NCBI GenBank assembly: GCA_004297465.1 | Contig: SCUB01000015.1 | Location: 1-64,000 of the forward strand | Source of the DNA: Xanthobacteraceae bacterium | GTDB lineage: Bacteria > Pseudomonadota > Alphaproteobacteria > Rhizobiales > Xanthobacteraceae | Length of the DNA: 64,000 bases | Direction: 5' to 3' | Shown here: one piece after another, positions 22,958-29,514 of the stretch | Layout of the letters: the number at the start of each line of letters is the position of its first letter | How positions within the stretch are numbered: position 1 is the stretch's first letter | Translations under genes and position numbers: made by a program | Notes under the pieces: generated by a model | What the model was told of the DNA's origin: nothing | The model's input: only the letters and a program-made list of their open reading frames with translations | Database searches by the model: none

Positions 22958-23575
22958 ATGTCACTCGAACTTTATCTCGCCTTCGTCGCCGCCTGCGTGG
23001 CGCTGGCACTGCTGCCGGGGCCGATCGTCACCCTCGTCATCGCCAACGGCCTGCGTCACGGCTCCCGCGCCGCGCTCGTCAACGTCGCTGGCGCACAGGC
23101 CGGCCTAGCGGTGGTGACCGGCATCGTCGCCGCCGGCCTCGCCACGCTGATGGCGACCATGGGCGTGTGGTTCGACTGGGTGCGGCTGGCCGGCGCCGCC
23201 TACCTGATCTGGCTCGGCATCAGGGTGCTGCGCGAGCCGGCGGCGGCGGGCATTGCCGGCGAAGCGCCGCCGCGTCCGCGCGGCGGCTTCTTCCTGCAGG
23301 GCTTCCTGGTGCTGATGAGCAACCCCAAGGCGCTGCTGTTCTTCGGTGCGTTCATCCCGCAGTTTGTCGACATGGACAAGCCGCATGTGCCGCAGGTGAT
23401 GCTGCTGGGCGCGACCTTCATGGGCGTTTCGGCGGTGACCGACGCCGCCTACGGGCTGCTCGCCGGCCGCGCCCGGCACTGGCTGAGCGCGCGGCGCACG
23501 CGCGCTCTGGCGCGCCTGTCCGGCGGCTTCATGATCGGTGGCGGGGTGTGGCTGGCCCTGATGCGGGCGCGCTGA
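22958..23575 (+). CDS. LysE/RhtB family amino-acid exporter
   Basis: A 205-residue inner-membrane exporter of the RhtB/LysE family. Six hydrophobic segments, the N-terminal signature CVALALLPGPIVTLVIANGLRHG and the mid-protein FFLQGFLVLMSNPKALLFFGAFIPQF are characteristic. GGGAAGG lies before the ATG at 22958. It probably exports amino acids or homoserine lactone-like compounds; the substrate is unknown. It is followed by dnaG after 127 bases and shares its strand. Confidence 0.88.
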   Translation: MSLELYLAFVAACVALALLPGPIVTLVIANGLRHGSRAALVNVAGAQAGLAVVTGIVAAGLATLMATMGVWFDWVRLAGAAYLIWLGIRVLREPAAAGIAGEAPPRPRGGFFLQGFLVLMSNPKALLFFGAFIPQFVDMDKPHVPQVMLLGATFMGVSAVTDAAYGLLAGRARHWLSARRTRALARLSGGFMIGGGVWLALMRAR

Positions 23576-23702
23576 GGCCGGTCGCCACGGCCTGTGGATA
23601 GCCGGGACAACCGGCGCGCCGTACGCTTTCGCCGCGCGATGCCCTATATCCATGAGGGTTCGGCATCATGCCAGACCGGACGGTCGAGGCCAGCGAAGTC
23701 CC

Positions 23703-25706
23703 ATGCGTTATCCGCCCCAGTTTCTCGACGAGCTGCGCGCGCGGCTTCCGGTGTCGGAAGTCGTGGGCCGCCGCGTCAGGCTGAAGAAGGCCGGGCGCGA
23801 GTGGAAGGGGCTGTCGCCGTTCAACAAGGAGAAGACGCCCTCGTTCACGGTCAACGACCAGAAGGGCTTCTATCACGACTTCTCCTCCGGCAAGCACGGC
23901 GACATCTTCGGCTTCCTGATGGAGACCGAGGGCGTTACCTTCACCGAGGCGGTGGAGCGGCTCGCCGCCATGGCGGGCCTTGCCGTGCCCGCCGCCACGC
24001 CCGACGACGCCCGGCGCGCCCAGCGCCGCAAGACGCTGCACGAGGTCATGGAGCTGGCGGCGAAATACTTCGCCGAGACGCTGGCCTCGCGGACGGGGGC
24101 CAGGGCGCGCGGCTATCTCGCCGATCGCGGCATCGACGCCGCGACCCAATTGAAGTTCCGCATGGGTTACGCCACGCCGGAGCGCTTCGCGCTCAAGGAG
24201 CATCTCGGCGGCCACGGCGTTTCCGTCGAGGACATGGGCGAGGCGGGGCTGCTGATCGCCGGCAACGACATTCCGATCCCCTACGACCGCTTCCGCGACC
24301 GCGTGATGTTCCCGATCACCGACCTGCGCGGCCGCGTCATCGCGTTCGGCGGCCGCGCGCTCGAAAAGGACGTGCCGGCGAAATATCTCAATTCGCCGGA
24401 GACGCCGCTGTTTCACAAGGGCGACAATCTCTACAACCTCGCGAGCGCGCGGCTTGCCGCCCATAACGGCGCGGCGCTGATCGCGGTCGAAGGCTATGTC
24501 GACGTCATCGCCATGGTCGGCGCCGGCTTCGAGGCCACCGTCGCCCCGCTCGGCACGGCGCTGACCGAGAATCAGCTCGCGCTGCTGTGGAAGATGGCCG
24601 ACGAGCCGCTGTTGTGTTTCGACGGCGACAAGGCCGGCCGCGCCGCCGCCTATCGCGCCGCCGACCTCGCGCTGCCGCTGCTCAGGCCGGGAAAGAGCCT
24701 GCGCTTCGCGTTGTTGCCCGAGGGACAGGACCCCGACGACCTGGCGCGCTCCGGCGGCCGCGCCGCCCTCGACGAGGTGATCGCGGCGGCCCGTCCGCTC
24801 GCCGACATGATCTGGGCGCGCGAGGTCGAGGGCGACACCTACGCCACGCCGGAGCGCCGCGCCGCGCTCGAGGCGCGGGTCGGGGAACTCGCCAACACCG
24901 TGCGCGACGAGGTGGTGCGCAAGTATTACCGGCAGGACCTGGCCGAGCGGCTGCGCCGCTTCCTCACCCCCGAGGCGGCCGAGCCGGCCTGGCGCGGTGG
25001 CGGCGGAGCCCGGTTCTGGCGCGGCGGCGAACCGTCGCGGCGTTATCCCTCCGGCGGCGGCGCCCGCGCCATGCCCGCTGGCCGGCCGGGCGCCCGGCCG
25101 CTGACCCCGTCCGGTCCGGGGCGGGCCTATCAGGCCATGAGCCCGCAGCTGGCCGGCAGCCCGCTGATGCGCGGCCAGCGCAGCGCCATGCCGCGACGCG
25201 AGGCGCTGATCCTGCAGTCGCTCATCAACCACCCTTGGCTGCTGCACGACCATCTCGAGGAGGTCGCGGCGCTGGAATTCGCCCATCCCGAGGCTCACCG
25301 TCTGCGCGCCGCGATCATCGCCGCCTTCGCCCACGCCGCCTCCGCCGAGGCCGATCCGGCGGCGGCCGCCGCCGATTTGCGCGAGAAGCTCGCAGGGGAT
25401 GGTTTTCGTGATATATTGCAAAGGGTTGACGGCGCCATCACGACCGGGGCGGTGTGGGGCGCGCGGTTCGGGGCGGCGGCCGACGACGTGCTGATGACCT
25501 GGCATCAGCTTGTGTCCTTGCATCGGCAATGGAATTCCTTAACTAGAGAACTCAAGGACGCCGAAATGGCGCTCGGCCAGGAGACTTCGGAAGCGAATTA
25601 CTCCTGGCTTCGGGACGTCAAGGCGCGGCTCGCGGCGGTCGATGGCCTCGAGGCCCAGATCGAGGGCTTCGGGGAGGAATCGGGCCGCAGGGCGGGCGGG
25701 GTCTGA
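23703..25706 (+). CDS. dnaG: DNA primase DnaG lacking zinc ligands
   Basis: DnaG primes leading and lagging strands at the fork and works with DnaB. The 667-residue protein has an N-terminal zinc-ribbon region, a Toprim catalytic core with EGYVDVIAM (acidic Glu) and FDGDKAGRAAAYRA (DxD-type metal ligands), and a C-terminal DnaB-binding domain. In the zinc ribbon all four usual ligands (CHC2) are replaced: the segment reads LSPFNKEKTPSF then FYHDFSSGKHGD, with Ser, Asn, Asp and Ser in place of Cys, His, Cys and Cys. The fold and aromatic residues are kept, so it may hold without zinc. I recall similar DnaG in Bradyrhizobium relatives. A Gly/Arg/Pro-rich linker precedes the C-terminal domain. 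Confidence 0.95.
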   Translation: MRYPPQFLDELRARLPVSEVVGRRVRLKKAGREWKGLSPFNKEKTPSFTVNDQKGFYHDFSSGKHGDIFGFLMETEGVTFTEAVERLAAMAGLAVPAATPDDARRAQRRKTLHEVMELAAKYFAETLASRTGARARGYLADRGIDAATQLKFRMGYATPERFALKEHLGGHGVSVEDMGEAGLLIAGNDIPIPYDRFRDRVMFPITDLRGRVIAFGGRALEKDVPAKYLNSPETPLFHKGDNLYNLASARLAAHNGAALIAVEGYVDVIAMVGAGFEATVAPLGTALTENQLALLWKMADEPLLCFDGDKAGRAAAYRAADLALPLLRPGKSLRFALLPEGQDPDDLARSGGRAALDEVIAAARPLADMIWAREVEGDTYATPERRAALEARVGELANTVRDEVVRKYYRQDLAERLRRFLTPEAAEPAWRGGGGARFWRGGEPSRRYPSGGGARAMPAGRPGARPLTPSGPGRAYQAMSPQLAGSPLMRGQRSAMPRREALILQSLINHPWLLHDHLEEVAALEFAHPEAHRLRAAIIAAFAHAASAEADPAAAAADLREKLAGDGFRDILQRVDGAITTGAVWGARFGAAADDVLMTWHQLVSLHRQWNSLTRELKDAEMALGQETSEANYSWLRDVKARLAAVDGLEAQIEGFGEESGRRAGGV

Positions 25707-25878
25707 CGGGTGTTGCAGGTTCAAGCTGGCGGCGGGTCATGGGGGCGCCTTGACCCCGCCTCAAACGACCGGCACTCGGGCGCCCGGGGAATACGGTTAA
25801 GCGGGGCTTAACGTCCCCGCCAGAGACTGGACGGGTGATTCGGGGGTGGTTCCGCGCCGGGGGCCGCCCTTTTGGTGC

Positions 25879-25921
25879 GCCGGCAATTTCCCGAGCCGGC
25901 AAGGCGAAGCCGGATTTTTTT
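25879..25921 (+). promoter_or_regulatory. Attenuator-like leader just upstream of rpoD
   Basis: Three mutually exclusive pairing segments are seen: GCCGGC (25879-25884), GCCGGC (25895-25900) and GCCGG (25909-25913). Segments 2 and 3 make a hairpin CCGGC-AAGGCGAA-GCCGG followed by seven T at 25915-25921, an intrinsic terminator. Segments 1 and 2 can pair instead and would prevent it. The T-run ends 34 bases before the rpoD ATG. The rest of the 249-base dnaG-rpoD gap has no gene and presumably holds rpoD promoters. Confidence 0.5.
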
Positions 25922-25955
25922 GCGGTACCGCATCGGCGTTTCGGAGTTTGAAGGC

Positions 25956-28088
<2,133 letters not shown>

Positions 28089-28100
28089 TCGCCATCGGCG

Positions 28101-28130
28101 TCATTGCCGGGCTTGCCCCGGCAATCCATC
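28101..28130. repeat. REP-type hairpin after rpoD
   Basis: TCATTGCCGGGCTTGCCCCGGCAATCCATC: ATTGCCGGG (28103-28111) pairs with CCCGGCAAT (28117-28125). The same element, in varied forms, recurs near 28.7, 33.5, 38.0 and 41.1 kb. Confidence 0.8.
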
Positions 28131-28138
28131 GGAAAACA

Positions 28139-28173
28139 TAAACGGTGGGCTGAAAGGCCCGCCGTTTATCTTT
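28139..28173 (+). terminator. Terminator of rpoD
   Basis: TAAACGGTGGGC (28139-28150) pairs with GCCCGCCGTTTA (28157-28168) with one G-U pair, loop of 6, then a short T-rich tail (TCTTTG). Confidence 0.75.
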
Positions 28174-28231
28174 GCTGCAGGTGCGGCTGTGCTCGTTGTT
28201 GACCACATGGATGGCGACACTCAGTGCCCCC

Positions 28232-28522
28232 TCACTGCGCGCAGGGACCCAGCGGCGGCGGGGTGCGGTGCAGGAAGGTGATGGTCAGGTAGGCGCCGAG
28301 CCACGAGCCCGCCGCGGCGAACACCACATAGACCCAGTTGCTGGTGTAGCTGATCACCGCGAACGAGGAGAGCAGGTACCAGAGCCCGCTCCAGTTCGCG
28401 GCCGGCAGGCGGCGGCGCTCGACCACCGACGACGTGAACATGACATAGGCGGCGTCCGTGGTCGCGGTCGCGACCAGGACGCCGAGCGCAATCAGGGGAT
28501 CGATCTGCAGCGACGACAACAT
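28232..28522 (-). CDS. Small membrane protein of unknown function
   Basis: A 96-residue protein with three hydrophobic segments: residues 8-20 (LIALGVLVATATT), about 40-58 and about 62-80. I do not recognise a named family. GGAGGACTTC is a strong ribosome binding site before the ATG at 28522. It stands alone between the rpoD terminator and a REP cluster. It has no signal-peptide cleavage motif and is probably an inner-membrane protein. Confidence 0.65.
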   Translation of the reverse strand: MLSSLQIDPLIALGVLVATATTDAAYVMFTSSVVERRRLPAANWSGLWYLLSSFAVISYTSNWVYVVFAAAGSWLGAYLTITFLHRTPPPLGPCAQ

Positions 28523-28624
28523 GGGAGAAGTCCTCCGGGGAACGAATGGCCCCAACCTTAGGCCCTGATCCGACCGGGCATCAATCGTTCCACGGGCGCA
28601 AGGTCGGCGCGGCGCTTCTTTCCT

Positions 28625-28770
28625 TCGTCATCACCGGGCGTAGCGTCGCGCAGACCCGGGGATGCATTTGCGAAAGAAGGTGGATTGCCGGGTCAAGCCC
28701 GGCAATGACGAAAAGGGGTAACGGCAAGGACTCTCCCCTCGTCATGCCCGGGCCTGGCCCGGGCATCCAG
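28625..28770. repeat. REP cluster, three hairpins
   Basis: Three elements in tandem: an imperfect one at 28627-28655 (TCATCACCGGGCG ... CAGACCCGGGGATGC), GGATTGCCGGGTCAAGCCCGGCAATGACG at 28682-28710, and GTCATGCCCGGGCCTGGCCCGGGCATCC at 28741-28768. They fill the 28523-28809 gap, where no gene is seen. Confidence 0.85.
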
Positions 28771-28809
28771 CTTCCTTCGTCAAAGCACTTGGATCACCGG
28801 ATCGCGCGC

Positions 28810-29514
28810 TTATCCCCGCGCCGGGATCGTCAGCCCGCGCTGCACCGCCGGCCGCGCGAGGCCGCGCTCGAGCCACGCGCCGACGTGCCTGAATCTGTCG
28901 TAGTCGACCAGCTCGCGCGCGCCATAGAAGCCGATGAGATTGCGCACCCAGCCGAGCATCGAGACATCCGCGATGGTATAGTCGTCGCCCATGAACCATT
29001 GCCGGCCGTCGAGCTGCTGGTCCATCACGCCGAGCACGCGCTTCGACTCGCCGACATAGCGGTCGCGCGGGCGCTTGTCCTCGTAGTCCCTGCCGGCGAA
29101 TTTGTGGAAGAAGCCGACCTGCCCGAACATCGGCCCGACGAACGCCATCTGGAAATAAACCCACTGGATCGTCTTCCAGCGCAGAGCGGCGTCGGCTGGC
29201 AGGAGCTTGCCGGTCTTCTCCGCGAGGTATTGCAGGATCGCGCCGGACTCGAACAGCGCGAGCGGTTTGCCGCCCGGGCCGTCCGGATCGATGATCGCCG
29301 GAATTTTTCCGTTCGGGTTGAGCGACAGGAATTCCGGGGTCTTCTGGTCGCTCCGGTCGAATTCGACGAGATGCGCCTCATATGGCAGGCCGATCTCCTC
29401 CAGCATGATCGAGACCTTCACGCCGTTCGGGGTGGGGAGCGAGTAAAGTTGCAGCCGCTCCGGATGCGCGGGCGGCCAGCGCGAGGTGATGGGGAAGGAG
29501 GAGAGGGAGGACAC
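28810..29514 (-). CDS. Glutathione S-transferase family protein (YfcG/Nu-like)
   Basis: A 234-residue GST. The N-terminal thioredoxin-fold domain starts at RLQLYSLPTPNGVKVSIMLE, the S/T/P-N-G catalytic region of Nu-class GSTs such as YfcG and Ure2-like enzymes. LNPNGKIPAIIDPDG contains the cis-proline of the glutathione site, and LFESGAILQYLAEKTGKLLP finishes the domain. The C-terminal helical domain has QWFMGDDYTIADVSMLGWV. It probably acts as a disulfide-bond reductase with glutathione or glutathionylspermidine. It is divergent from the transglycosylase gene. Confidence 0.9.
   Translation of the reverse strand: MSSLSSFPITSRWPPAHPERLQLYSLPTPNGVKVSIMLEEIGLPYEAHLVEFDRSDQKTPEFLSLNPNGKIPAIIDPDGPGGKPLALFESGAILQYLAEKTGKLLPADAALRWKTIQWVYFQMAFVGPMFGQVGFFHKFAGRDYEDKRPRDRYVGESKRVLGVMDQQLDGRQWFMGDDYTIADVSMLGWVRNLIGFYGARELVDYDRFRHVGAWLERGLARPAVQRGLTIPARG

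Follow-up and report, generated by a model that had tools for sequence, protein, structure and literature searches.

A terminator-type hairpin between a CtrA-type box and rpoD in the leaders of many Xanthobacteraceae

In many Xanthobacteraceae the leader of rpoD, the gene for the main sigma factor, contains a G+C-rich hairpin followed by a short T-tract and located between a CtrA-type box and the gene. We tentatively propose, with a probability of roughly 0.4, that this leader carries a promoter-proximal, leaky intrinsic terminator behind a CtrA-type promoter. The sequence under study was a window of 64,000 nucleotides (the whole stretch of DNA analysed: positions 1 to 64,000 of contig SCUB01000015.1, assembly GCA_004297465.1, Xanthobacteraceae bacterium). 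An initial annotation of this window had described a different arrangement in the rpoD leader, namely a transcription attenuator built from three GCCGG-type segments. As judged from the alignment of relatives, the element common to many of them is the hairpin at 25844-25873, which that annotation did not list.

Materials and Methods

The 196 rpoD leaders compared were obtained from 41 relatives searched, source genome included (30 leaders), from a search across 149 genomes of the family, 140 of them with a match (26 new loci and 60 more), and from 80 named loci. The named rpoD relatives were Bradyrhizobium, Afipia, Tardiphaga and related metagenome assemblies; the 80 named loci and the unnamed ones overlap in species, and their counts are not independent. 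Thinning by shared 8-mers reduced the 196 leaders to 95 non-redundant ones. If a match did not begin at a start codon, the start of rpoD was set at the closest in-frame ATG 5' of it. In genera with long N-terminal readings the true start may lie still further 5', and a scan of 150 nt may miss part of their leader. An Ala/Lys/Pro-rich, coding-like stretch was seen by eye 5' of the chosen ATG in L015, L016, L031, L186, L190, L192 and L194, and likewise in L196, L199, L209, L213 and L223; such stretches suggest N-terminally extended sigma factors in some genera.

For the alignment of the conserved hairpin, only matches with GG...CC arms were kept from the 52 hairpins detected, leaving 45; manual removal of L221, an unrelated match, reduced these to 44. 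L008 is misaligned in this alignment and L164 and L201 are partly misaligned; all three were counted. The hairpin model, R1, was built with the help of 11 of the 80 named loci.

Results

The source genome comprises 3.12 Mb in 27 contigs, and the window has a G+C content of 67%. Both gene identities proposed initially, dnaG and rpoD, were confirmed by NCBIfam matches (Table 1). A DnaG-like reading was found upstream of rpoD in 194 of the 196 loci; in the remaining two, which have no dnaG match in 1.5 kb, a dnaG-like reading lies further upstream. Rearrangements separating rpoD from dnaG were sought among these loci without yielding an informative case. At gathering scores, an Rfam search of the whole window returned tRNA only, leaving the rpoD leader without a match to a described family, and two matches below threshold fall within 25700-25980. 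No promoter was detected by a sigma-70 scan of positions 23000-29000, a scan that is also blind to CtrA-type promoters.

Table 1. Coordinates of the features of the dnaG-rpoD region within the window.
Feature	Position	Strand	Basis or remark
dnaG (DNA primase), upstream gene	23703..25706	+	NCBIfam TIGR01391, 411 bits
CtrA-type box TTAA-N7-TTAA	25797..25811	+	sole match in 64 kb
GAGACT, proposed -10-like element	25823..25828	+	inferred; by eye, similar hexamers lie roughly as far from the box in other leaders
GATTC (GANTC) site near the proposed transcription start	25837..25841	+	40 nt after box start
Conserved hairpin, 5' arm GGGTGGTTCC	25844..25853	+	relatives' alignment, R1 matches
Conserved hairpin, 3' arm GGGGCCGCCC	25860..25869	+	relatives' alignment, R1 matches
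T4 tract directly 3' of the conserved hairpin	25870..25873	+	T3-T6 in 44 aligned hairpins; T3 is the detection rule
Segment 1 of the initial annotation, GCCGGC	25879..25884	+	letters checked
Segment 2 of the initial annotation, GCCGGC	25895..25900	+	letters checked
Segment 3 of the initial annotation, GCCGG	25909..25913	+	letters checked; pairs with 25896-25900
T7 run after the 2:3 hairpin	25915..25921	+	34 bases before the rpoD ATG
rpoD (main sigma factor)	25956..28088	+	NCBIfam NF004208 RpoD, 943 bits

The exact TTAA-N7-TTAA box occurs in 52 of the 95 non-redundant leaders, against 0.15 expected by composition. Among the other spacings from N3 to N12, only N10 (3) and N11 (2) were found. With this conserved box, the region upstream of rpoD has the sequence form of a CtrA-type promoter. 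CtrA binding at the rpoD promoter has been reported in Brucella abortus (PMC2877005), and a CtrA motif upstream of rpoD in Sinorhizobium meliloti (PMC3616915). The leader studied here shares with these two CtrA-controlled promoters the CtrA site or motif upstream of rpoD; it differs from them in its hairpin 3' of the box, of which the excerpts of the two papers drawn on here make no mention. With GAGACT as a candidate -10-like element, transcription would start near 25836 and the conserved hairpin would be transcribed first. A GANTC site is present at offset 40-45 from the box start in 17 of the 61 leaders with a box, and the density of GANTC between 15 and 80 nt after the box is 0.0072 per nt, compared with 0.0048 overall.

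Hairpins of at least 7 pairs followed by T3 were found in 52 of the 95 non-redundant leaders, against 11.5 in shuffled sequences. In the window, the stretch 25842-25873 folds with -20.9 kcal/mol and a z-score of -2.1 (z-scores of five conserved hairpins ranged from -2.1 to -4.6), and 82 bases separate the end of the T4 tract from the rpoD ATG. In 22 of the 45 matches the stem has the same letters, GGGTGGCG/CGCCGCCC. The spacer between the 8-base arms ranges from 2 to 14 and the loop letters vary too, while the stem stays constant. A DNA palindrome bound by a dimeric regulator was also considered and is less likely, because this variable spacer fits an RNA element better. Relative to the box (exact or a one-letter variant), the hairpin lies downstream in all 37 leaders that have both, one unrelated match excluded, with 45-206 nt from the start of the box to the hairpin. 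The order is box, hairpin, gene.

In the alignment of 44 hairpins, 98.6% of the cells are paired, a percentage inflated by selection for pairing and T3. Three of the eight pairs (16-39, 18-37 and 19-36) changed on both sides, in 4 cells in all, and pair 15-40 is seen as U-G, C-G and U-A. The covariation score of the alignment was reached by none of 500 shuffles. A control slid by -3 also had 3 pairs changed on both sides, in 5 cells, with 60.7% of the cells paired. Given the few changes on both sides, the 5 in the control and the pairing-based selection, we take the covariation as suggestive only.

Model R1 matched at rpoD in all 80 named Bradyrhizobium/Afipia-type loci and in 64 of 106 other family loci, source genome included, leaving 42 without a match. 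The 64 comprise 14 of 20 and 26 of 26 loci (together 40 of 46) and 24 of 60 more diverse ones; three of these 24 matches are weak (L219, L217 and L180), and that of L219 may touch coding sequence. None of nine rpoD loci from other families of the order was matched. In the source genome the rpoD leader is the top R1 match, with 31.1 bits, followed by a site with 26.3. A family search with R1 covered 61 genomes, of which 55 had a match; the best one was the rpoD leader in 20 and lay elsewhere or was not placeable in 35. When only matches with E below 1e-6 were considered (13 genomes), the rpoD leader, identified by position, was best in all 13. In other families, R1 sites score as high as 37.1 bits; at the 31.1 bits of the source genome the model is therefore unspecific, and it is position that carries the argument. 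From an order-wide R1 search 26 loci were read, none with rpoD within reach. Seven of them follow a same-strand ORF by 12-40 nt, and in 17 a mechanically called ORF touches the site. One of the 26, L274, belongs to Xanthobacteraceae, and L264 is cut by a contig end.

We then compared rpoD sites with other copies of the stem. The same stem followed by TTT occurs at 1-4 sites in 9 of 10 family genomes, the reversed pattern never. Of eight such sites outside the rpoD leader, two follow a same-strand ORF at distances of 23 and 34 nt. T4 or T5 follows the stem at 5 of 8 sites elsewhere compared with 1 of 8 rpoD sites, whereas a GCGTC or GTGTC tail after the T-tract is present at 7 of 8 rpoD sites and at none of the 8 others. 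Since these other sites were found without using the tail as a criterion, its lack there weakens the terminator reading and strengthens that of a stem-loop that does not terminate. The conserved tail and stem letters exceed what a plain terminator needs, which suggests something more specific. The tail-bearing rpoD leaders are L276, L278, L279, L280, L284, L288 and L290. Tails resembling TTTTTGCGTC at R1 sites of other families were discarded as an argument, because R1 models the tail and the reasoning would be circular. In the aligned hairpins the T-tract is T3 only in 33 of 44 and T4-T6 in 11 of 44. A Term-seq study of Methylosinus sporium classes structured ends with at least three U after the stem as U-rich terminators, in the part of that report considered here (PMC12403871). 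With such a class, T3 is no bar to a terminator.

Two further features were noted in the leaders. A CATAGGGTAGGGGG-type motif lies at most 700 nt upstream of rpoD in L203, L204, L208, L012 and L164 (5 of 196, strict pattern), with two copies in L203 and L204, and looser look-alikes were seen by eye. A second hairpin, near the ribosome site at -50 to -26 from the rpoD ATG, is present in L003, L071, L073, L095, L166 and others. Its stem letters differ widely. It beat shuffled sequences at 0.05 in 8 of 43 leaders, and was set aside as a conserved element when RNAalifold gave no consensus.

The three segments of the initial annotation lie closer to rpoD. Their letters and coordinates, the T7 run and its 34-base distance from the rpoD ATG all proved exact, and pairings 1:2 and 2:3 do exclude each other, both using segment 2. 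Pairing 1:2 comprises 6 pairs (-12.3 kcal/mol); the 2:3 hairpin has 5 pairs and a loop of 8 (-9.7 kcal/mol) and is followed by one A and then by T7. Counting both strands, the window has three T7 runs, one of which is that of the 2:3 hairpin. A search of the 3.12-Mb genome for CCGGC-loop-GCCGG-T5 gave 16 sites and none for the reversed pattern; among the 7 sites inspected, 3 follow the end of a same-strand ORF by no more than 50 nt and 2 are located inside called ORFs. These counts indicate that the 2:3 hairpin is terminator-like beyond chance, and by its letters the hairpin with T7 belongs to a terminator-like class of the source genome. Under lax criteria there is nothing special about the region: 6 kb contain 4 terminator-like sites, and shuffled sequences 3.8. 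Fold z-scores were -1.4 for 1:2 and -1.6 for 2:3 taken alone, and -0.04, -0.28 and -0.14 for stretches spanning the segment region. A perfect 10-base palindrome, GCGGTACCGC, lies at 25922-25931, directly 3' of the T7 run. The 70-base insert was tried as a dispersed repeat and rejected: it has no second copy in the genome, and the next match has an E of 0.1.

The third segment adds little to this hairpin, because CCGG is its own reverse complement, the window contains 220 copies of GCCGGC, and an upstream competitor of at least 6 bases within 45 nt accompanies 13% of the 873 CCGGC sites of the window (44% for at least 5 bases). Equilibrium folding of the transcript 25838-25921 gave a probability of 0.94 for 1:2 and 0.06 for 2:3. 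Once 1:2 has formed, partners further upstream are available to segment 3, and the two states therefore do not make a clean switch. By the initial annotation, a lack of conservation of the three segments would refute the switch; they have no counterpart in the leaders of the relatives compared here, all of them from other genera. Six of the 196 leaders contain a T6+ run no more than 150 nt from the chosen start codon: that of the window, and L011 and L182-L185, where the run comes after the upstream hairpin or one occupying its position. At the place of the window's T7 run, none of the 195 other leaders, from other genera than the source, carries a T6+ run. Likewise, neither a relative carrying segments 1-3 nor a conserved or covarying antiterminator was found among these genomes, again all from outside the genus. 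Since congeners were outside the set, the segments and T7 may still be conserved within the source's own genus. Among the genomes searched, the three-segment arrangement is present in the source genome only. What survives of the attenuator layout is a terminator-type hairpin in the rpoD leader after dnaG; the switch, with segments not conserved among these genomes, a chance-level third segment and lopsided pairing, is not supported, and as drawn it is probably a lineage-specific terminator hairpin plus a chance third copy.

Discussion

Both hairpins of the source leader have the sequence form of an intrinsic terminator, a stable G+C-rich stem with a U-tract (with one A between in the case of 2:3, and T3 in most relatives). 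In the reading that we prefer, RNA polymerase would start near 25836 and, within the first 40 nt, meet the conserved hairpin and its T-tract, beyond which only part of the polymerase would continue into rpoD. The element would thereby set or trim rpoD output, and it may also block read-through from dnaG. The source genome would have a second, lineage-specific terminator (2:3 with T7) between the conserved hairpin and rpoD, which pairing 1:2 would mostly disarm.

A close rival, doubtful as we hold it, is that the conserved hairpin does not terminate but acts as a 5' stem-loop, either protecting the rpoD mRNA or serving as a protein-binding site. The identity of the stem letters in 22 of 45 matches, the prevalence of T3 only (33 of 44) and the tail found at rpoD sites and absent from same-stem sites elsewhere all speak for it, and in some genera the hairpin begins close to the proposed 5' end, which also favours it. 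However, the T-tract adjoins the stem and reaches T4-T6 in 11 of 44 hairpins, T3 being itself the detection rule, and a distance from the box that varies from 45 to 206 nt fits such a stem-loop poorly. It is slightly less probable, and in our view unlikely, that both hairpins are plain dnaG terminators with the rpoD promoter downstream of them. That 194 of 196 loci have a DnaG-like reading close 5' of rpoD agrees with this, as do the 3 of 7 inspected sites of the 2:3 class that lie just past ORF ends. Yet the CtrA-type box, a reported rpoD control site in other bacteria, precedes the hairpin in all 37 leaders with both, only 82 bases are left between T4 and the ATG in the window, and the sigma-70 scan, to which CtrA-type promoters are invisible, gave no promoter in 23000-29000.

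The switch originally drawn, a true attenuator in which a signal chooses between a 1:2 antiterminator and a 2:3 terminator, appears highly improbable. Its 2:3 hairpin with T7 does fall in the terminator-like class of the genome and its two pairings are mutually exclusive, but the T7 run is without equivalent in the 195 other leaders, all from other genera, its third segment is at the chance level of 13% of CCGGC sites, and its states are unbalanced (94% vs 6%) with other partners available to segment 3. More ambitious than our preferred reading, and unlikelier than either the stem-loop or the dnaG terminators, is a regulated early stop no more than some tens of bases into an rpoD transcript driven by CtrA. 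Shared by many genera and marked by the conserved tail, it would couple the supply of sigma-70 to either the elongation machinery or the cell cycle, the source lineage having added a second terminator with its own 1:2 antiterminator.

The conserved hairpin resembles intrinsic (Rho-independent) terminators in the G+C-rich stem, short loop and T-tract seen in the rpoD leader hairpins. It differs from them in sitting between a promoter box and the gene that it would serve, in keeping its stem letters and tail across genera, and in its T-tract, mostly T3. Leader attenuators, such as trp-type attenuators and riboswitch terminators, have a terminator-type hairpin in the leader. The rpoD leader shares this hairpin, and differs in that no conserved antiterminator was found in it and that leader peptides or ligand domains were sought via Rfam only.

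The case of the three segments illustrates that G+C-rich self-complementary words such as GCCGGC can mimic switches that are absent from relatives. CtrA binding at rpoD has already been published for Brucella (PMC2877005); a leader hairpin of rpoD was not met in the literature searched, and open-access searches found no description of one. Lying between the CtrA box and rpoD, this conserved hairpin of terminator type may offer a specific, testable candidate control point for the main sigma factor in laboratory strains of Bradyrhizobium.
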